Origin: Serpentinicella alkaliphila
Lineage (GTDB): Bacteria > Bacillota > Clostridia > Peptostreptococcales > Natronincolaceae
Direction of reading: 5' to 3'
Assembly (NCBI RefSeq): GCF_018141405.1
Contig: NZ_CP058648.1
Location: 1,069,001-1,133,000, forward strand
DNA length: 64,000 nucleotides
Of the stretch, positions 3,679 to 52,207 are shown piece after piece (within the stretch, counting starts at the first letter, position 1; every line of letters starts with the position of its first letter). Both the position numbers and the translations under genes were made by a program. The notes below the pieces were generated by a model. It did not search any database. It saw only the letters and a program-made list of their open reading frames with translations, and was not told the DNA's origin.

Positions 3679-3894
3679 AAAAAATTGATGTAAATATAAA
3701 AATCAGGTTATGTCAATATGATCAAATAATAAGGTAAGCAGAAATATAGCAATGGTTATTAAAGACTTTGTGAGGTACAAAGTGTATTTAAAAAAGAATT
3801 AATCATAGTACAACTTAATTTTGGTATAAAATTCTAAAAAAAAGAAAAAAATAGGAATAAAATCCTAAATTTTAAATAAGATTTAATAAATATA

Positions 3895-3968
3895 ACAGGA
3901 GACGAAGAAGTACGCTTAATAATTGGGCACTTTAAGGCGTATGGAGTGAGTGGTGCAACCGACCTGAG
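3895..3968 (+). ncRNA. Cyclic-di-GMP-II riboswitch aptamer (RF01786 class)
   Basis: The core AATTGGGCACTT and, 28 bases on, GTGGTGCAACCGACC closely match the class II c-di-GMP aptamer known from Clostridium acetobutylicum, as I recall that sequence. Supporting structure is visible: GGCAC/GTGC pairing, a pseudoknot between GTACGCTT (3910-3917) and AAGGCGTAT (3933-3941), and a closing P1 helix between CAGG (3896-3899) and CCTG (3963-3966). It lies about 150 bases upstream of a sensor kinase gene. Class II aptamers bind c-di-GMP and in clostridia control motility, pili and surface proteins. Confidence 0.88.
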
Positions 3969-4007
3969 TTATTGTTGTAATATACAATAGTTTAGGTCGA
4001 TTTTTTT
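3960..4007 (+). terminator. Riboswitch expression-platform terminator
   Basis: CGACCTGAGTTATTGT pairs with ACAATAGTTTAGGTCG (about 16 pairs including G-U wobbles) and is followed by seven T. Its 5' arm reuses the aptamer's 3' P1 strand (CCTG) and part of the conserved CCGACC. Ligand-stabilised P1 should therefore block the terminator, so I infer that c-di-GMP turns the downstream genes on. Confidence 0.85.
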
Positions 4008-4118
4008 AAAAGCAAAATGAGACAGGTCCTGTAACATCAATATATAAGAGGGATGCTCTTAAATTAAAATGATTTTTTTTTGTTAATAAAGTAACAGTTA
4101 GATAAAGGAGGGGTTTTC

Positions 4119-5825
4119 TTGTTAGAAATTAAAGAATACAGGAAAATATCTTTATTACAAGGATATCCAGAGTTCATTAAAATCACTTTTATTTTTAGAT
4201 ATTTAACTTTATTGATTACATCATTGTTCTACTTATTTGGAAGTGTGGAACACTCCTTTCTAAGAAAATGGATCATTATATTCTGCATAAGTTTATCTGC
4301 AATAGTACTTAATCTATTATACATAAAAAGTGAGCAATCTAAATATAATACGATAGTATTAATCCTAATTGAAACTATAGGAAATTCAGCAATACTCATT
4401 CCATCTGGAGGGTTAAATAGCCCATATGTATGGTATTCACTGAATACAATTTTAGTAGCTGCAGTGAAACTGGATTATAAGGTTTGTTGGTTAAATTTAG
4501 CTATATATTTATTTAATTCAACTTACATTACTAACTTATTAGTTAATGAACAAGTTAATTTGTTTGAAGCTTTTGTTAAAGAATCAAATCTAATACTAAG
4601 TTTTGTTTTAATTACAGGAGTTATATTACTTTTAGCCAAATATGCCCAAGAAAATGAAGAAAAAACTAATAATTTAAAGATAGCTAACAGTAAACTAATC
4701 TATGCAAACCATAGAATAAAAGAATCAATGAATCATATTATGGATTTATATAAATCTGTTGAGCTGTTTGCATCACAAGAAAATAGTAGAGATTTAATTA
4801 ATATAATAACAGAGTATTGTAATAAAGTAATAAGAACTGAGACTGTAATATTTATGAGTCAAACCAAAGGTATTACGCCAATAACAATTAGGTCAGAAAT
4901 GGAACAATTAGATAAAAAAATTGCAAATGAGTTGCAAAGCAAAAATATTTGCTTAGCTAACTGTGAGACTCTCGAACATATTATAAATGATAAAAGGTTT
5001 TTGTTTGTATCGGTGGGGAACAATTGCAAAAACTTTGGCGCTATCGGAATAGATTTGGATTCAAGTTTAAAAATAAATACAGAAGAAGAGGTAGTAGAGC
5101 AGTTAAAGTTAGTAGCAAATCTTAGCTCTATATTATTTGAGAAATTCGAGCTTCAGCAATTTGCAGAGGAGCTACTAATAAATAAAGAGCAAAATAGAAT
5201 AGCTGATGAGATACATGATGGAACACTACAAAGATTATTTAGCACTTCATGTGGAATTTATGAAACGATTAAAAGACTTAAAAAAAGCAGTCTAATAGAC
5301 ATTGAAAGGGATTTAAATATTATTAGGAAATCACTTAATGAAACAATGAGAGAACTGAGAGAAACCGTATACGGGCTTAGTTGGAAGAAGAATGGAGAAA
5401 ACAACTTTATTGCACAAATACTAAATTTTATAAATGATACTAAGGTATTAAACAATATAAATATAGAGTTTAGTCTAAATGGTTCAGATGAAATGCTTTC
5501 ACTCAAGCAAAAGAAGGCACTATATAGAATAATTTGTGAAGGAACGAGTAATGCCATAAGGCATGCAAAAGCAACTAATATATACATAATTCTTACCTTA
5601 GATAGAGAGTATACTACTTTAGAGATTATAGATAATGGTGTAGGCTTTGACATAAAAAGAGTAGAGAGTGAGAATAAGATGGGATTAGGCATTGGAAATA
5701 TAAGGAATTTGGTTAATACATTAAGAGGGGATATTTATTTTAACAGCTCAATCGGTGGAGGAACGATAATAGAAATTACGGTTTCAAATAATGAAAATCT
5801 TTTAGTTAAGGAGGAAGTCGGATGA
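4119..5825 (+). CDS. NarL/DegS-type membrane sensor histidine kinase
   Basis: A 568-residue kinase with a TTG start behind AAAGGAGGGG. About six N-terminal membrane segments (residues 25-175) are followed by a coiled coil (about 178-215), a GAF-like region (about 220-345), and a HisKA_3 dimerisation domain with the H-box ADEIHDGTLQRL (phospho-acceptor His366). The ATPase domain has an N-box near GTSNAIRHA (Asn478), DNGVGFD (about 505-511) and MGLGIGNIRN. This layout is typical of NarX/DegS/LiaS-type kinases paired with LuxR-type regulators. Its stop overlaps the start of the partner regulator. It is the first gene behind the c-di-GMP-II riboswitch, so its level should follow c-di-GMP. The signal sensed is unknown. 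Confidence 0.93.
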   Translation: MLEIKEYRKISLLQGYPEFIKITFIFRYLTLLITSLFYLFGSVEHSFLRKWIIIFCISLSAIVLNLLYIKSEQSKYNTIVLILIETIGNSAILIPSGGLNSPYVWYSLNTILVAAVKLDYKVCWLNLAIYLFNSTYITNLLVNEQVNLFEAFVKESNLILSFVLITGVILLLAKYAQENEEKTNNLKIANSKLIYANHRIKESMNHIMDLYKSVELFASQENSRDLINIITEYCNKVIRTETVIFMSQTKGITPITIRSEMEQLDKKIANELQSKNICLANCETLEHIINDKRFLFVSVGNNCKNFGAIGIDLDSSLKINTEEEVVEQLKLVANLSSILFEKFELQQFAEELLINKEQNRIADEIHDGTLQRLFSTSCGIYETIKRLKKSSLIDIERDLNIIRKSLNETMRELRETVYGLSWKKNGENNFIAQILNFINDTKVLNNINIEFSLNGSDEMLSLKQKKALYRIICEGTSNAIRHAKATNIYIILTLDREYTTLEIIDNGVGFDIKRVESENKMGLGIGNIRNLVNTLRGDIYFNSSIGGGTIIEITVSNNENLLVKEEVG

Positions 5826-6460
5826 TTAATATACTAATTGTGGATGATCATCCCCTAGTTAGGAAGGGGCTAGTATCAATTTTATCACTTGAGGATGATA
5901 TTAACGAAATCAAAGAAGCCGCTAACATTAAAGAGGCAACGAATTTACTTGAAACATATAACCCACAAATCACAATTCTAGATTTAAACTTAGGAAAAGA
6001 ATACGGATTAGATTTGATTAGTAAAGCTAAGTCAAAAACTGATAGCAAATTTATTATTATAACCTCTTCTTATAAAAAGGAAGACTTTGAAAAAGCTCAA
6101 GAAATAGGAGTAGATGGATACATATTAAAGGATGCTTTTACAGAAGATATCATATACGCGTTAAGTATAGTTAAGAGGGGAAAAAAGTTTATTGATAATG
6201 AAATATTGCAACAGAGCATGAAAAATAATAAAAGAGAAAAAGAAAAATTAGACGAGTTAACTTCTAGAGAGATGGAAGTTCTAGAAGAGTTAGGTAAAGG
6301 GCAAAGCAATATTGAAATAGCACAAACACTTTATATCTCACCTTATACAGTAAAGAAGCATGTCAGTAGCATATTAAGCAAGCTAAATTTACATCACCGG
6401 ACTGAGGCAGCACTTTATATTAATAGTTCATTAAAATTAAAGCGATCTACGATTATTTGA
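5822..6460 (+). CDS. NarL/LuxR-family response regulator
   Basis: A 212-residue regulator. The receiver domain (1-120) has the acidic pair Asp8/Asp9, phospho-acceptor Asp54 (ILDLNLG) and Lys103 (YILKDAF). The LuxR-type helix-turn-helix (about 145-205) contains LTSREMEVLEELGKGQSN and YTVKKHVSSILSKL. The ATG overlaps the kinase stop by four bases, so it is the kinase's partner. The camelysin-like gene starts 25 bases downstream, which makes the fibre locus its obvious target, either in one transcript or by activation of a later promoter. Confidence 0.95.
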   Translation: MINILIVDDHPLVRKGLVSILSLEDDINEIKEAANIKEATNLLETYNPQITILDLNLGKEYGLDLISKAKSKTDSKFIIITSSYKKEDFEKAQEIGVDGYILKDAFTEDIIYALSIVKRGKKFIDNEILQQSMKNNKREKEKLDELTSREMEVLEELGKGQSNIEIAQTLYISPYTVKKHVSSILSKLNLHHRTEAALYINSSLKLKRSTII

Positions 6461-6485
6461 TGCAAAAATTAGAGGAGGAGTTAAA

Positions 6486-7016
6486 TTGGCAAGAAAAAAA
6501 AGAAAGGGAATTGGTATAGGAAAACAAATAATAATAGTTTCTTGTGTAATTGCACTGAATCTAGTAGGAATAAGTTATGCTCTATGGAATACAGGAACGA
6601 TTATTGAATCAACTGTTTCTACTGGGTATATTAATCCTGTATTTACTACAGGGGGTAGAACCTATTCAGTAGGAACACTGGATTTACTAACGAATGAGAT
6701 TGTTGAGTTGGAAATAGAAGTTGATCATGATGCTGGAACCGTGCCTCATAAATTTATAGGTTACGATGTATATTCATATCCAACGAATATAGATATTAGT
6801 TTTACAGGTAATGGTATAAAACTTACTGCTCCTGAAATTCCTGGAGAATACACCTATGAGGTAGTACTAAGGTATATTCAGTATAATGGCTTTGGTTGGG
6901 AGAAAGATTTAACGATAAAGGGCGGAATAAATGTAACGGAACCACTTCCAGTTTTGGGTACAGATACAGTTGGGATTGAAAAAATAGAATTTGATAGCGG
7001 ACTACAAGAAAAGTGA
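6486..7016 (+). CDS. Camelysin/TasA-like secreted protein (SipW-type signal)
   Basis: A 176-residue protein with a TTG start behind AGAGGAGGAG. The basic N-terminus (MARKKRKGIGIG) leads to a hydrophobic stretch ending ISYALWNTG, the form of signal peptide cut by SipW-type peptidases in TasA and camelysin proteins. After cleavage the mature chain has the usual small beta-rich start (TVSTGYINPVFT). The rest looks like an immunoglobulin-type beta domain (GTVPHKFIGYDVYS; GEYTYEVVLRYI). It is smaller than TasA (about 260 residues) and could be a minor fibre component. It follows the response regulator directly and precedes the signal peptidase gene. Confidence 0.75.
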   Translation: MARKKRKGIGIGKQIIIVSCVIALNLVGISYALWNTGTIIESTVSTGYINPVFTTGGRTYSVGTLDLLTNEIVELEIEVDHDAGTVPHKFIGYDVYSYPTNIDISFTGNGIKLTAPEIPGEYTYEVVLRYIQYNGFGWEKDLTIKGGINVTEPLPVLGTDTVGIEKIEFDSGLQEK

Positions 7017-7104
7017 TATTAAAATAAATTGCTTTAATGAAGCTTATGAGGAAATGTAGTCGATGTTAATTATAAGAGATTCATATGTTAAGCGGGGGAT
7101 ATAA

Positions 7105-8310
7105 GTGGTAGTTTATAGTGTTTTGCAAGGCATTATACTTAAAAAAAAGTGGATAATATTGACTTCATTAGCAATAGCAATATATTTAGTAGAGAACTCA
7201 CCGTTAGTCACGGTATTAGGGAGTTATAAATTTAATTATGTGATAAAGCCTATTTTATGGAGTGGGCTAATTATTCTTGTGTGGATGTTTCCACAGGTAA
7301 GATCTCAGACAAAGTTAAAGTATAGAGAAAATATAAATATGTGGGCGTTTAATTTCGCAGTTATGTTTATATTAATTTCAATTGTGGCAGGATTGTTTGA
7401 CGGACTAGGAAAAAGCCCGTATAACCATTCTGTCTCAGGATTATTTTTTAATATCATATTTGTTGTACCTAAATTGGTGGCCCTAGAGGTTATAAGAAAC
7501 TATATAGTAAATACAATATTAAAAGAAGAGAAGTTATATATTTTTATTATAATAGCCTCTATTATAACTATTGTAAGTTTTCAGTTAAGTAGAATTTTAT
7601 CCTTAGAGGGATTAGATAGCAAAGTACAGTTTGTAGGACAGTACTTTGCACCAGAATTTTGTCATAATCTACTCGCTACCTATTTAGTTTTTATTGGAGG
7701 ACTTATACCTTCTATTATTTACATGGGAATTTTGCAAGGTTTTCATTGGATGTCTCCAATATTACCAGATTTAAAATGGATAACTTCAGCCTTAATCGGC
7801 ATACTAGTTCCAATGTTTTTTCTTATTACTATTCAGAGTATTCACCTTACACAGAGTAAAAAGCTAAAAAGAAGAGAAAAAACCCAGGAGAGCCCTATAA
7901 GTTGGATGACGACTAGTGTGTTATCTATAATGATTGTATGGTTTTCTTTAGGAGTATTTCCAATATATCCATCAGCAGTAGCTACAGGAAGTATGGAACC
8001 AATTATCTACCCTGGTGATGTGATTTTAGTGAAGCAGAATATTATAGTAAATGAACTTCAAGAAGGCGATGTAATACAGTTTCAAAGAGGCAATATTTTA
8101 ATAACTCACAGAATTATTGATATAGAGGAGGATAGAGGGGCATTAGTAGGTTTTGTAACCAAAGGTGATAACAACTCTTCTGTAGACGTGGAAATTGTCA
8201 AGCCTGAATATGTAAGAGGCAAAATTGTAAAAGTTGTCCCTAAAGTAGGTTGGCCTACTTTGCTATTTAGGAGTAGAAAGAATGTAAATTTAGATGAAAT
8301 TGTGTTCTAG
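7105..8310 (+). CDS. sipW: SipW-type signal peptidase I with polytopic N-terminal domain
   Basis: A 401-residue membrane protein with a GTG start behind GCGGGGGA. The C-terminal 120 residues are an ER/SipW-type signal peptidase: catalytic Ser296 in ATGSMEPIIYPGD, His335 in LITHRIIDI (in place of the lysine of the bacterial Lep type) and Asp355 in TKGDNN. Ordinary SipW has about 190 residues. Here an extra 270 residues with around eight hydrophobic segments precede the peptidase and are not part of the catalytic family. It should cut the SipW-type signals of the two neighbouring camelysin/TasA-like proteins at the outer face of the membrane. Confidence 0.88.
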   Translation: MVVYSVLQGIILKKKWIILTSLAIAIYLVENSPLVTVLGSYKFNYVIKPILWSGLIILVWMFPQVRSQTKLKYRENINMWAFNFAVMFILISIVAGLFDGLGKSPYNHSVSGLFFNIIFVVPKLVALEVIRNYIVNTILKEEKLYIFIIIASIITIVSFQLSRILSLEGLDSKVQFVGQYFAPEFCHNLLATYLVFIGGLIPSIIYMGILQGFHWMSPILPDLKWITSALIGILVPMFFLITIQSIHLTQSKKLKRREKTQESPISWMTTSVLSIMIVWFSLGVFPIYPSAVATGSMEPIIYPGDVILVKQNIIVNELQEGDVIQFQRGNILITHRIIDIEEDRGALVGFVTKGDNNSSVDVEIVKPEYVRGKIVKVVPKVGWPTLLFRSRKNVNLDEIVF

Positions 8311-8341
8311 AGGATATGTTGACAAACTATCCTCTATTTTT
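8309..8341 (+). terminator. Intrinsic terminator after the signal peptidase gene
   Basis: AGAGGATA and TATCCTCT form a stem around an 11-base loop, followed by ATTTTT. The stem begins within the stop codon. Some read-through is possible because the run of T is broken by one A. Confidence 0.7.
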
Positions 8342-8379
8342 AATTTATATACCAACAATAAAAAGTTGTTATATAAATT
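8342..8379 (+). repeat. AT-rich inverted repeat upstream of the TasA-like gene
   Basis: AATTTATATA pairs with TATATAAATT, and CAAC with GTTG across one mismatch, giving a 14-pair hairpin about 190 bases before the TasA-like gene. No T-tract follows. It may act as an mRNA end-protecting structure or as a binding site. Confidence 0.5.
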
Positions 8380-8567
8380 GTAAGTCTAAATGAGTAAAGT
8401 ATGGTTTGCATTTAAAAAAACTTGGTTCTCTAGAGGTAGTATAAATTCTACTTTTGTGGGATTTGAGCTAAAGAAATCAGGGCTATAATTAACATATAGC
8501 AAGTATATTAAAGATATAAATGCTACTTGCGAAATTACAAATCAAATTAAAAGGAGAGGAATTATTA

Positions 8568-9290
8568 ATGAAAAAAACTAAATTTATTGCAATGGCATTA
8601 GTAGTTGCAGTTATGATGATGGGGGCAGGTTATGCATTCTGGACTGATCAACTAACAATCACGAGTACGGTATCAACTGGAGAGTTTAGGGTTGATTTTA
8701 CCGGACAAGGGATGTTTGGAAAAGAGAGATATAAAGCAAATCCAAATGCATATGCAAGTTGGAGAGATGGACATTATATGGGTAAAGCAGATAATGTACA
8801 AGATCCTGGGACTTTCATTGTTAATAAGGTTGACGATAAATCATTAGAAGTAAAAATTAGTAATATGTATCCAGGTACTATGGTAAAGATTGCAGCTAAG
8901 GCCCAAAATAACGGAACAATACCAGCGGTAGTAAACAATGTTGAGATTGAAAATATTAATGTTAATGACAAATTAGCAAAAGTATTAGAATTTAGTGGTA
9001 AGGCAAAAATATTAAGAAATAATGGGTCAGTTGAAAGTATTGATGTTCCGAATTCAAGACTAGGTGGAGCTGATGGAAAAACTTCTCTAGAAGATGCATT
9101 AAATAGTGCACTTAAAGGTATAAGATTAGAACCAGGTGAGTCTGTGGAGTTTAGCACTGCGGGTGGAGGATCACATGCACTAACTATAGAACTACCTGTT
9201 TCAGTCAAAAATGAAGATGATGTTGAAAATGCAATAGCTAACTTCAAAATTATTATTAATTGGGAACAACATAACGCAAAATATTTCTAA
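8568..9290 (+). CDS. TasA/CalY-like fibre protein
   Basis: A 240-residue protein. The start used (MKKTKFIAMALVV) follows AAGGAGAGGA; the open frame extends 16 codons upstream without a binding site. A SipW-type signal ends GAGYAFWTD, followed by TITSTVSTGEFRVDF, the typical start of mature TasA/camelysin. MYPGTMVKIAAKAQNNGTIPA (split here from residue about 102) recalls the donor-strand groove region of the TasA fold, in which subunits polymerise into amyloid-like fibres. A separate TATAAT box lies at 8484-8489, so it may have its own promoter as expected for an abundant structural protein. Confidence 0.85.
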   Translation: MKKTKFIAMALVVAVMMMGAGYAFWTDQLTITSTVSTGEFRVDFTGQGMFGKERYKANPNAYASWRDGHYMGKADNVQDPGTFIVNKVDDKSLEVKISNMYPGTMVKIAAKAQNNGTIPAVVNNVEIENINVNDKLAKVLEFSGKAKILRNNGSVESIDVPNSRLGGADGKTSLEDALNSALKGIRLEPGESVEFSTAGGGSHALTIELPVSVKNEDDVENAIANFKIIINWEQHNAKYF

Positions 9291-9305
9291 GCTTTATTAA
9301 TTAAG

Positions 9306-9331
9306 TTGGGGAGAAATCTCCAATTTTTTTA
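9306..9331 (+). terminator. Intrinsic terminator after the TasA-like gene
   Basis: TTGGGGA and TCTCCAA form a hairpin with a GAAA loop, followed by eight T. The tight tetraloop and long T-tract suit a strong terminator. Confidence 0.85.
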
Positions 9332-9453
9332 TAAAAACCTGATCTTAATAAAAACTACCCCTATATAAGTAGTAAAAATATAAAGTTAGTATAACATTTT
9401 AAAGGAGATTAAATGCTTTTATAGAATTATTTGATCAAAAGGAGGGGTTTTGG

Positions 9454-10542
9454 TTGAAACGCAAAATAAGAAAAAAATATAGGATGAGTATAATATATGT
9501 ATTGTTATTTTTAATTGGAATCACATTTGTTTCAACTTATAGAGGAATTAAATACCCTGGATTTGAAGAACACAAGAGTTCTGTTTATGAATATAAAAAA
9601 CTTTCGAATATAAATTATGAAGTATTATTAAAACCTAACATTGTATATAATAACAGTAGTCTTCCAGAGGGACAGATTTATGTTACAGAGTTTGTAGATT
9701 ATTTAGATGCACATTTTAGGTACGAATTTATGGGAGAAAAGAGTTCAGAAATAAAAGGAGAATATAAGATAATAGCTGAAGTTAAAGGATATACAATAGA
9801 AAACAAAGAAGAGAAAGATATCTGGACAAAGGAATATACACTTTTAAATAGCACAGAATTTAGTGAAATAGGTAAGAGAATATTAATAGAAGAGAAAGTA
9901 TCAATTGATTTAGATAAATACAATGAATTTGTTAAACTAGTTACTTCTGAATCAAAAATTGGATTAAATAGTAAATTAATTGTATCAATGATTATTAATA
10001 TGGATGTAACTACAGATCATGGAAAAGTTCAAGAAACCATAAATCCAACACTAGTAATTCCGCTTAATGTTGGTTATTTTAGTATTGATAATCTTGGAAC
10101 AATTTATGATGTAGGCTCCATTGATGAAATTAAAAATGTTAAACTTCCAGTTGAAAAACAATTAATATTAACATATGTAATCATTTTAGTTATTTTTATT
10201 TCTGTTTTAATAAGTATGAAGTTTCTAACTACTAATGGTGATGAAGATGATAATGTTCTTAAAATTATCAAAATGATATTTAAACAACATGGTAATCGAT
10301 TGGTTGCTATTACAAATGAATTAGATACTACTTACGAAAATATGTATAGTGTGAAAGGAATAGAGGATTTAGTTAAAATAGCCGATGAAGTAGAAAAACC
10401 TATTATATATAAATATAGAAACAACATTAAAGAGATTTTAGAGTTTTATGTTCTAGATAGTCCGTCAATTTATGTATTTGATTTGAATCAGGCACTAGAA
10501 GCAGATAATAGAGTTATTGTAGAGTCCAAATCAAATAGTTAA
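9454..10542 (+). CDS. DUF5305-like membrane protein of the fibre locus
   Basis: A 362-residue protein with a TTG start behind AAAAGGAGGGG. One membrane segment lies near the N-terminus (about residues 12-30) and another at about 237-256 (LTYVIILVIFISVLISM), leaving an extracellular domain of about 200 residues and a cytoplasmic tail of about 100. The order LLKPNIVYNN, then YVTEFVDYLDAHFRYEF, then a beta-rich region resembles DUF5305, a family often found beside SipW-like peptidases in archaea and clostridia. The function is unknown; its place suggests help in export or assembly of the camelysin-like proteins. Confidence 0.65.
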   Translation: MKRKIRKKYRMSIIYVLLFLIGITFVSTYRGIKYPGFEEHKSSVYEYKKLSNINYEVLLKPNIVYNNSSLPEGQIYVTEFVDYLDAHFRYEFMGEKSSEIKGEYKIIAEVKGYTIENKEEKDIWTKEYTLLNSTEFSEIGKRILIEEKVSIDLDKYNEFVKLVTSESKIGLNSKLIVSMIINMDVTTDHGKVQETINPTLVIPLNVGYFSIDNLGTIYDVGSIDEIKNVKLPVEKQLILTYVIILVIFISVLISMKFLTTNGDEDDNVLKIIKMIFKQHGNRLVAITNELDTTYENMYSVKGIEDLVKIADEVEKPIIYKYRNNIKEILEFYVLDSPSIYVFDLNQALEADNRVIVESKSNS

Positions 10543-10567
10543 ACTATAAATAAAATAGTAAAAAACA

Positions 10568-10604
10568 AAAGAAGTCAATAGATGCTAAAATGACTTCTTT
10601 TTTA
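10568..10604 (+). terminator. Intrinsic terminator after the DUF5305-like gene
   Basis: AAAGAAGTCA and TGACTTCTTT form a ten-pair stem with a 13-base loop and a T-tract. Confidence 0.85.
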
Positions 10605-10743
10605 GTATAAAAATAAATATATAGACGAGTATACTACTGATGGACTATTAAATTAAATCAAAAGTAGCACTAAAAGTAACCTTTTGAATGGAATAAATTG
10701 ACGATAATTATATAAAATATAGTAAAGATAGGTAACTTGCTTT

Positions 10744-11994
10744 ATGGAGGTGTTTAATATCAAGAATTTCTTTAAAAGAGTAGGGAGATTTTTAATTTTT
10801 ACTATGGTAATGATTTTTATCACAAGTAGTCTAATGCAAACTTCATATTCAACTTTTTCACTAGGCAAACCTAATATAATGGTAACAATATTTAGCAATG
10901 GGACTATTGAAACTGAAGGCAATTTATTTGGAGAGGATTTATGGTATCCTGGTAAAGAAAAGAGTGGAGTTATACGCATTAATAATTATTATAAACCTAT
11001 ATATACCGATGACATTGGCTTTGAAATAAATCTAGAAAAGTATAACAGAATATATACTAAAGACAGTATATACAATGAGTTTAATAACAAAATGAGACTG
11101 ACATTAAGTCGAGGGAAGTTAGATGCAATTTCAACTAAAATTATTGATAATGTTAGTTTGGAGCAATTAATAAAAGGATACAATTTTGAAGAAAGAAAGA
11201 GATTCATAATTGAAAAAAATGACTTTGTGGATTTAAAGTACACTTTAACTATGCATGAAGAGGCAGGTAATGAGTTGCAAAATATAACCGCAACAATATC
11301 GATGACGCTAAATGTTAATGAGAGAGCAGCTCATGAACAACCAATCAATGGAGGTAAGGGTAGTAATGGCGGTAATGCTAGTAATGGCGGTAATGGTAGT
11401 GATGGATGGGGAACTAATATTGAAAAACCCGTTGAAAAACCAATTCCTTGGGATATTAAAGATCACTGGGCTAAGAACTGTATATTGTGGTTAATTGAAA
11501 AAGGGATAATCACTGGTTATGAGGATGGGACGATAAGACCAAACAACTATATTACACGGGCAGAGACTGCTGCGTTACTAGCTAGGGCATTCAAACTAGA
11601 AACATCTGATAAGCTATATTCTGGGTATCTAGACCCAATCCCTTATTGGGCGAGGGGATATATACTAGCTTTAACAGAACAAGAAATCTTTATTGGTTCT
11701 CCTGCAAATGGAGGCAGGGTGTTTATGGCTAATGCCTTTATTACAAGAGAACAGACGGTTGCTGTATTTATAAGGGCTTTTAGTCTTTGCTTAGAGGAAG
11801 AAGTAGAGTTAGGTTTTATTGATAAAGACGAAATATCCGAATGGGCATTAGATTATGTTAAGGCTGGAGTTGGTAACAGAATCTTAAACGGATATCCAGA
11901 TAATACTTTACGGCCTAAAAATAGTATTACAAGAGCTGAAGTATTCGCCATTTTATGCAGACTCTTAAAAATGAGTCAGGAAGTGGTAAATTAA
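10744..11994 (+). CDS. SLH-domain surface protein with camelysin-like N-terminal domain
   Basis: A 416-residue exported protein. A signal sequence (about residues 13-37) is followed by a beta-rich domain (about 38-200) whose DLWYPGKEKSGVIRINN resembles the camelysin/TasA fold. Next is a Gly/Asn/Ser-rich linker (about 203-226), then three S-layer-homology repeats (about 236-285, 297-350, 356-410) with TRAETAALLARAF, TREQTVAVFIRAF and TRAEVFAILCRLL. SLH repeats bind pyruvylated wall polymers, so it probably anchors the fibre to the wall, the role TapA has in Bacillus. The start is uncertain: the best Shine-Dalgarno, GGAGGTG at 10746-10752, lies just inside the ATG used here and is better placed for an AUC codon at 10759. 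Confidence 0.85.
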   Translation: MEVFNIKNFFKRVGRFLIFTMVMIFITSSLMQTSYSTFSLGKPNIMVTIFSNGTIETEGNLFGEDLWYPGKEKSGVIRINNYYKPIYTDDIGFEINLEKYNRIYTKDSIYNEFNNKMRLTLSRGKLDAISTKIIDNVSLEQLIKGYNFEERKRFIIEKNDFVDLKYTLTMHEEAGNELQNITATISMTLNVNERAAHEQPINGGKGSNGGNASNGGNGSDGWGTNIEKPVEKPIPWDIKDHWAKNCILWLIEKGIITGYEDGTIRPNNYITRAETAALLARAFKLETSDKLYSGYLDPIPYWARGYILALTEQEIFIGSPANGGRVFMANAFITREQTVAVFIRAFSLCLEEEVELGFIDKDEISEWALDYVKAGVGNRILNGYPDNTLRPKNSITRAEVFAILCRLLKMSQEVVN

Positions 11995-12072
11995 ATGAAG
12001 TTTCAAGTAGAAGTAATTCGCAAGCAGTATCAAAGAAGTTAATGCATGATCAGTAAACAATTAACTTAAAAG

Positions 12073-12102
12073 CGGTATGGGAAAAATCTCATACCGTTTT
12101 AG
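12073..12102 (+). terminator. Intrinsic terminator closing the fibre locus
   Basis: CGGTATG and CATACCG form a hairpin followed by TTTTAGTTT. It lies about 80 bases beyond the SLH gene. Confidence 0.85.
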
Positions 12103-12106
12103 TTTG

Positions 12107-12654
12107 TTATTGCTATTTATAAATAAAAAGCCCGTGTAGGTATTATATGCGCTACGAATTTATTAACAAAAATAAATATATATGAATCATTTGAATAGAT
12201 GTTTCTAATACCACTCTAGACGTGTTTAGATTCATTAACAGATGTTATTTCAAATAGTGCTTCTGTGTATATTTCAATTGAATGTAATCCTAATATTCTA
12301 GGCTTTGAATCAAAAGATAGCATTAATTGTAACTCAAGACATGCCAAAAGTAAAAATATCATCACTGCCCAAATAAATAATCAATGTAATTATTTTTACA
12401 ATTAGTGGTCCCTCTAGCTGTAAGTGTAAATAAATACTTCCTCCTAGAAATAATAAAATATAGGATTACAATTACTTTTGACGCAAGATAGCTACCTTTA
12501 ATGTTAACTTATTCGTTAATTTTAATTAAGTGAAAATTAATGGAAATAAAAATATAAAATGGTATATAATAAAAAGATAGGTAGAAATTGAATGAACTAC
12601 CGTGTTTATTGGTAAAATATTAATAAGCTTTAGTTATAAGAGGAGGTACATATT
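12107..12654. other. Gene-free region with a possible decayed coding fragment
   Basis: No gene with a normal start is visible. On the plus strand a stop-free stretch of about 60 codons (about 12222-12403) reads DSLTDVISNSASVYISIECN and so on but has no ATG/GTG/TTG start or ribosome binding site, and ends in TAG. It could be the end of a lost gene or chance. The remainder is AT-rich, and the promoter of the cyclophilin gene is presumably near its right end. Confidence 0.4.
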
Positions 12655-38850: not shown

Positions 38851-38913
38851 CAATTAAATAACACTTAAGAGGGGCATAATATTTGCATTAGCAAATTTTA
38901 AGAGGTGATTTTA

Positions 38914-51826: not shown

Positions 51827-51867
51827 AAAAAAGACCATTCCTATCCCATATATGGGACGAAATGGTC
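51827..51867 (-). terminator. Second T-box terminator (proximal to trpE)
   Basis: GACCATTTCGTCCCAT pairs with ATGGGATAGGAATGGTC, followed by six U. Its 5' side overlaps the antiterminator pairing region next to the CCGCG T-box. Confidence 0.9.
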
Positions 51868-51925
51868 GTTAAATCGCGGTGCCACCCAATTTAGCAATTG
51901 CTATAGACCTTGGGATTGTCGTAAG

Positions 51926-51964
51926 AAAATAAAAAGCACTTCATCCCTTTTGGGACGAAATGCT
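51926..51964 (-). terminator. First T-box terminator
   Basis: AGCATTTCGTCCC pairs with GGGATGAAGTGCT around AAAA, followed by UUUUUAUUUUC. It shares the TTTCGTCCC arm sequence with the second terminator, suggesting module duplication. Confidence 0.9.
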
Positions 51965-52207
51965 GAATTTCGTTATGCCACCCAATGCTTATAAGCATTT
52001 GCTCACTTAATCAGATACAGAGTTTAAAACTCGATATCATACCTCTATAACGTGAGGACACGGCATCGGCTACTATAATTCACCTAGCATCTCATAGATC
52101 CATTCCTTCTATACCTTTGTACCGGACCTTTCACCAGACGCCGGCTCGCTAAAACAAATTTATAAAAGTACTACTTCTAATCATCGACTTATATATAATT
52201 TAATTTA

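Follow-up and report, generated by a model that had tools for sequence, protein, structure and literature searches.

A probable biofilm-fibre locus of Serpentinicella alkaliphila behind a cyclic di-GMP riboswitch and a two-component system

Several described systems resemble parts of the gene set studied here, a putative surface-fibre locus behind a class II cyclic di-GMP (c-di-GMP-II) riboswitch in Serpentinicella alkaliphila. It lies in a 64-kb stretch of DNA (contig NZ_CP058648.1, positions 1,069,001 to 1,133,000), called the window below, to which all coordinates refer unless a relative is named; the host genome has 3.26 Mb in one contig. The tapA-sipW-tasA genes of Bacillus subtilis share with this locus the linkage of the genes, a dedicated Ser/His peptidase of the SipW type and SipW-type signal peptides, and their TasA subunit has a probable counterpart of the same fold here. 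They differ in being controlled by SinR/SlrR, and no c-di-GMP riboswitch, two-component genes, DUF5305 or SLH anchor are found there; therefore the combination is distinct from the Bacillus genes, as an earlier sequence-only reading of the window had proposed. In addition, B. subtilis SipW is devoid of the membrane extension of 250 amino acids which the peptidase carries here. Among Clostridia, the sipW-bsaABCRSD genes of Clostridium perfringens form a comparable locus for SipW-dependent fibres that includes a two-component system; their expression needs the linked BsaRS, and separate short and read-through transcripts exist (PMC7395162). For this locus no riboswitch is reported and no SLH anchor or DUF5305 is named, whereas in the window the regulators come first in order.

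In C. difficile a class II c-di-GMP riboswitch raises expression of the signalling operon cmrRST, which also has a second, regulator-dependent promoter (PMC8844915, PMC11477304). A c-di-GMP-II aptamer before the genes of a kinase and a response regulator is found in the window, too, but cmrRST comprises two response regulators and one kinase without linked fibre genes and features an invertible switch, whereas there is a single regulator gene here. The bundling pili AbpA/AbpX differ in being archaeal, and we know of no riboswitch or SLH anchor in these systems. Their likeness lies in the subunit, as the family profile described below matches AbpX, and in the formation of donor-strand fibres (PMC11952670). 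CapP (BC1280) of Bacillus cereus, studied with TasA/CalY, is a wall-located helper which promotes the assembly of TasA-type filaments, although its place on the wall is due to a disordered C-domain instead of SLH domains and its control to SinR (PMC13082335). Control of TasA-type biofilm fibres by c-di-GMP together with a two-component system is not described in the accessible literature, which is weak evidence because subscription papers mostly lie outside it. The same literature contains nothing which joins DUF5305 with a signal peptidase, or a c-di-GMP riboswitch with camelysin and a two-component system, and mentions Alkaliphilus together with c-di-GMP riboswitches in a single paper, on RNA structure prediction. 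What is new is thus the joining of the riboswitch-signalling half and the fibre half, the addition of DUF5305 and the fusion of a TasA domain to SLH repeats, while the separate parts have precedents.

We consider it likely that the genes form a biofilm-fibre locus under a two-step switch, operated by c-di-GMP and then by the two-component system. At the level of sequence this builds on the parts present, on their linkage in relatives, on an ON-type leader, on a candidate operator and on folds obtained by prediction. Seven genes, all on the + strand, lie between the riboswitch and a strong terminator (12069-12108, +; -18.5 kcal/mol, z -6.8). They encode a membrane-bound sensor histidine kinase of the NarL-partner type (4119-5825; TTG start, HisKA_3 and HATPase_c, phospho-acceptor H366), a NarL/LuxR-type response regulator (5822-6460; Response_reg 1e-20, GerE 1.4e-19, D54), a small secreted protein of the SipW-cargo type with 176 amino acids and a SipW-type signal peptide (6486-7016), a signal peptidase I of the SipW/archaeal type with an extra N-terminal membrane domain (7105-8310; TIGR02228, Ser296/His335), a TasA-like subunit with a SipW-type signal peptide (8568-9290; assigned by predicted fold and family profile), a DUF5305 membrane protein (9454-10542; PF17231, 4.8e-32, 112 bits) and a protein with three SLH domains (10744-11994; PF00395 in three stretches). 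The open reading frame caller placed the start of the tasA-like gene at 8520, whereas the ribosome site and the signal peptide favour the ATG at 8568. Neither a gene on the opposite strand nor a mobile element was found between the locus genes. The sequence-only reading was hence right in describing genes of one direction without foreign insertions, and its naming of the NarL-type kinase and regulator, the SipW-type peptidase, the DUF5305-like protein and the SLH protein was confirmed.

The riboswitch aptamer (3889-3973, +; RF01786, E 2.7e-14) matches the covariance model over its full length (1-84) with 72.2 bits against a gathering threshold of 53.5, so that the predicted riboswitch stands, with its start at 3889 instead of 3895. 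It overlaps an intrinsic terminator (3960-4006, +; 16-pair stem plus T run, -19.1 kcal/mol, z -6.4), the 5' arm of which contains the entire 11-nucleotide 3' arm of the aptamer stem P1. Because the ligand-stabilised P1 and the terminator are mutually exclusive, the leader is laid out like an ON switch, and from this layout we infer that the ligand would raise expression. Of the 21 rows studied, which stand for 20 distinct sites as L012 and L016 are one locus, 19 showed the overlap of terminator and P1, with the reservation that in L012/L016, L028 and L040 the overlap script chose another hairpin than the eye would. In C. difficile, ON switches make up the majority of the class II c-di-GMP riboswitches (PMC11477304). 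The host genome contains 24 GGDEF matches.

Studying the relatives reveals that the gene set is conserved. DUF5305 relatives occur in five of 20 genomes of the family and always within the same gene set, including one locus (L013) which has no SLH gene. When GTDB genomes were scanned with an alignment of the long SipW, the long peptidase turned up in about 40 loci. According to the sequence-only reading, unlinked genes in related genomes would speak against a common system; instead the same genes are linked in near-identical order in about 30 loci of Clostridia/Tissierellia as well as in Halobacillus litoralis (L045), and a c-di-GMP-II riboswitch adjoins them in most testable cases. The usual order, taken from a comparison of open frames, is kinase-regulator-cargo-(second cargo)-SipW-TasA (one or two)-DUF5305-SLH. 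RF01786 was searched in 34 whole genomes of these loci, and a locus was regarded as testable when a kinase and at least 300 nucleotides upstream of it were present (n=26). In 15 of these 26 a c-di-GMP-II aptamer lies 3-169 nucleotides upstream of the kinase frame (the window, L013, L016, L019, L020, L021, L024, L025, L027, L028, L038, L040, L045, L048 and L056; the L038 aptamer is counted although its 45.9 bits are below the cut-off), and it is often the sole c-di-GMP-II site of its genome. Co-location by chance was rejected, because genomes of 2-5 Mb contain one to three c-di-GMP-II sites and yet one of them adjoins this kinase in 15 loci.

Four loci contain an aptamer but no such kinase or regulator. 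In L039, L041 and L042 it stands directly before a set of SLH, cargo, TasA, SipW and DUF5305 genes. In Sedimentibacter hydroxybenzoicus (L029, 8588-9345) a c-di-GMP-I aptamer directly precedes the cargo gene and replaces both the c-di-GMP-II aptamer and the two-component genes; the aptamer itself (8588-8675) runs directly into a terminator hairpin, which, judged by eye, is apparently again an ON layout. By their gene content these loci may be controlled on the same principle, but more simply and directly.

Some relatives show further peculiarities. L019 (15490-21053) and L040 (2003-5160) harbour second SipW-TasA-SLH clusters with a canonical short SipW, each with its own SLH protein and with a c-di-GMP-II riboswitch directly upstream. 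Immediately upstream of its copy of the locus, L010 carries a duplicate kinase-regulator pair (4-2375) that has diverged (35% and 47% identity). The kinase frame of L034 (6681-8413) is broken, leaving two open frames, through either a mutation or an error of the assembly. In L014 (136-528; G000:C1:1601035-1601427) a c-di-GMP-I-GGC aptamer is followed after about 140 nucleotides by two tandem c-di-GMP-II aptamers, 2 nucleotides apart. This stack, with two riboswitch classes on one leader, is unusual; it precedes a secreted-type protein of 545 amino acids, and two tandem c-di-GMP-I aptamers (5256-5480) lie 5 kb beyond it.

Judging from its terminators and promoters, the locus is not one simple operon. 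Terminator-like hairpins on the + strand follow sipW (8308-8341; -13.6 kcal/mol, z -4.5), tasA (9303-9326) and the DUF5305 gene (10567-10601; -11.3 kcal/mol, z -3.7), and because of these three the riboswitch need not directly control all downstream genes. The gap from the sipW terminator to tasA, about 150-380 nucleotides across loci, holds two conserved blocks, GGTACnAAAGTAGTAG and, in most loci 63-66 nucleotides further, ACTACnCTTTTGCAGGGCGTAAA. Of the 17 loci with the second block, 16, the window among them, have a TATAAT exactly 40 nucleotides after the position where this block begins, and L013 has TATACT at the same distance. We examined the block as a 24-nucleotide candidate operator, using a weight matrix scored with the own locus left out; as null, 1255 first-order Markov shuffles gave a mean of -10.5, a 99th percentile of 3.9 and a maximum of 17.2. 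The operator is present upstream of tasA in about 27 loci with leave-one-out scores of 12-48. Strong copies precede the SLH gene in L011, L020, L028 and L056 (21-30), with weaker ones in others, and the matrix scan of the loci found none before the kinase, regulator, cargo, SipW or DUF5305 genes. In the loci whose tasA has the opposite orientation (L031, L032, L035, L037) the operator has turned with it, and it was not found in L029, L039, L041 and L042.

In the window, which was left out of the matrix, the candidate operator at 8444-8467, with TATAAT at +40, forms part of a predicted tasA promoter (8444-8489, +), and a weaker operator-promoter copy (10674-10719, +; genome search E 0.53) precedes the SLH gene. 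A scan of both strands of the window ranked the site at 8444 best (12.2) and that at 10674 as the third + strand site (5.6). The second-best site (38857-38902; 9.4), before a patatin-like gene, has no TATAAT and is probably due to chance. With a model built from the sequences alone, every match of E<1e-3 in 14 whole genomes lies at this locus (tasA, SLH); most tasA sites were part of the model, so that the informative part is that the rest of these genomes yielded no sites at this threshold. The L013 genome has an operator-like site about 110 nucleotides before the riboswitch (E 1.2e-3). This model replaced an IUPAC pattern searched over ten genomes, which was too stiff and mainly recovered the known tasA sites. 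We also considered that the sequence from sipW to tasA might instead form a conserved RNA hairpin and rejected this on letters and spacing alone, as the distance to TATAAT is fixed at 40 nucleotides and letters are kept rather than pairs changed. The upstream half-site is the dyad ACTAC-TAAA-GTAGT, which suits a LuxR-type dimer. In the simplest reading of these sequences the operator, which overlaps the -35 region, would be where the linked NarL-type regulator binds as an activator.

The structures used for the fibre proteins are AlphaFold models from family alignments. For the model of the TasA-like protein (pLDDT, the predicted local confidence, 76) the best match in the PDB is the TasA fibre 8aur (Z 7.9, 151 residues, 4.1 A), a score not decisive by itself. 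By sequence the subunit family profile finds AbpX chains of solved structures with 2.1e-16 and 1.1e-10, and TasA chains with 0.02. The protein from the window stays just below the cut-offs of PF12389 (16.2 vs 22.5) and TIGR04088 (18.5 vs 19), while 18 out of 26 family members match the camelysin profile PF12389 at E<0.01. Similarly, it does not reach the cut-off of the C. perfringens BsaA family TIGR04090 (12.4 vs 60), which 11 of the 26 aligned proteins match at E<0.01. According to a preprint, TasA, ABP and ABPx all form donor-strand exchanged fibres (PMC11952670).

For the SLH protein the models indicate two parts. The N-terminal domain (about residues 41-197) matches TasA 5of2 (Z 9.8, 140 residues; Foldseek 1.5e-4), and the C-terminal part (about 233-413), with the three SLH domains, matches the SLH structure of Bacillus anthracis Sap, 3pyw (Z 22.7, 175 residues). 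On these predictions, the protein joins a TasA-fold domain and three SLH domains in one chain. A CsaB-type homologue of polysaccharide pyruvyl transferases (PF04230, 1.1e-48) is encoded in the host genome. A pyruvyl transferase of that type is needed for SLH binding.

The peptidase scores 81.1 bits with TIGR02228 (cut-off 51.85, E 7.7e-23), S296 and H335 are invariant in five aligned proteins, and identity to its relatives is 50-52% over the full length. The Bacillus SipW equivalog NF046067 gives 70.2 bits against a cut-off of 190, so by sequence it is an enzyme of the same type as Bacillus SipW and not the Bacillus protein itself. Its N-terminal membrane domain of 250 amino acids (7105-7900) is conserved, with invariant D99, E128 and R131, occurs also in the locus relatives and has no family match in Pfam or NCBIfam. 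The small cargo at 6486-7016, likewise without a Pfam or NCBIfam match, had been labelled camelysin-like; that label is given up, as the signal peptide is all it rests on. The N-terminus of this protein aligns with TasA-like proteins and with relatives at the same position, which makes it a candidate minor subunit or initiator, and the role of TapA could be taken by it or by the TasA-SLH protein. The DUF5305 protein shows 37-44% identity among relatives and no match to solved structures in a sequence search; it is a possible assembly or membrane platform.

Some observations weigh against the two-step switch of a biofilm fibre. A Z of 7.9 is at the edge of the range of unrelated sandwiches, even though the TasA fibre ranks first, and we know of no relative of the locus that forms fibres. 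Eleven of the 26 kinase-led loci (L010, L011, L026, L030, L032, L034, L035, L036, L037, L044, L049) have no c-di-GMP aptamer before the kinase that cmscan or the genome search recognised; L010 and L011 are from the same family as the window, and c-di-GMP control is thus not obligatory. The operator of the window is degenerate (12.2, and 5.6 before the SLH gene) with a poor upstream half-site, and its binding by the linked regulator is something we infer from the sequences.

This last point leaves room for the conserved operator belonging to another regulator. The weaker sites in loci with a divergent or no visible kinase/regulator (L044 8, L049 7, L050 6) fit such an explanation, which we nevertheless judge unlikely, because the operator is missing in the four loci L029, L039, L041 and L042, which lack both genes, is confined to the locus in the 14 whole genomes, as would not be expected for a global regulator, and contains a dyad suited to a LuxR-type dimer. 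Alternatively, c-di-GMP could drive all seven genes as one long operon with leaking terminators, the two-component genes being passengers or feedback. The single strand, the moderate strength of the terminators, the aptamers directly before structural genes in L039, L041, L042 and L029, and the reading through an internal terminator in C. perfringens sipW-bsaA (PMC7395162) are all in line with that; still, in about 27 loci sipW is separated from tasA by a terminator plus a conserved promoter of fixed spacing, and in the four loci with inverted tasA the promoter moves along, so that we hold this to be the most improbable of the alternatives. A different question is whether the fibres are biofilm matrix at all. 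The riboswitch-kinase unit and the fibre genes could be linked for the sake of, for example, spore appendages or S-layer decorations: TasA was originally named as a protein associated with the spore coat, the anchor belongs to the SLH proteins, and the locus is known here from genes alone. Since both the gating by c-di-GMP and the matches to the BsaA, TasA and AbpX families point to extracellular biofilm or bundling fibres, we have little confidence in such a function. The proposal that c-di-GMP controls the locus is supported by the riboswitch linkage, though most likely such control would reach tasA and the anchor gene at promoters of their own, by way of the two-component system, and not through one long transcript.

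The locus is preceded by a LysR gene and followed by a cyclophilin gene, both unrelated, and a T-box leader lies at 51850-52193 on the - strand (107.5 bits).

In the two-step switch, high c-di-GMP would bind the nascent leader RNA, P1 would form and the overlapping terminator would be blocked, whereupon RNA polymerase could read into the genes of the kinase, the regulator, the small cargo and the dedicated SipW-type peptidase. The signal of the kinase would be the second condition: the phosphorylated regulator would bind the operator over the -35 region of tasA and the SLH gene and activate both, with the DUF5305 gene being expressed via read-through from tasA or from an own start. The peptidase would then trim the TasA-like subunits, which would polymerise, probably by donor-strand exchange as in TasA. 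The TasA-SLH protein may cap or nucleate the fibre, its three SLH domains tying it to the wall through the pyruvylated wall polymer, and DUF5305 may serve as an assembly factor on the membrane side.

A wider generalisation, to which we give even chances, is that the locus represents a surface-fibre system found across the Clostridia and under an AND gate of c-di-GMP and a two-component system, with TasA-SLH proteins capping donor-strand fibres of the TasA/AbpX type and anchoring them to the wall non-covalently and without sortase. The swap of the riboswitch class in Sedimentibacter together with the regulator-free direct control suggests that control of these fibres by c-di-GMP has been selected for more than once. 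As riboswitch, operator and promoter lie at known coordinates, the chain from the messenger to the fibre can be tested by single deletions in alkaliphiles that are not pathogenic. The locus bears on the attachment of TasA-type fibres to the cell and on the use of c-di-GMP by Clostridia in making their matrix, and for the former the TasA-SLH fusion would be a concrete, testable anchor.

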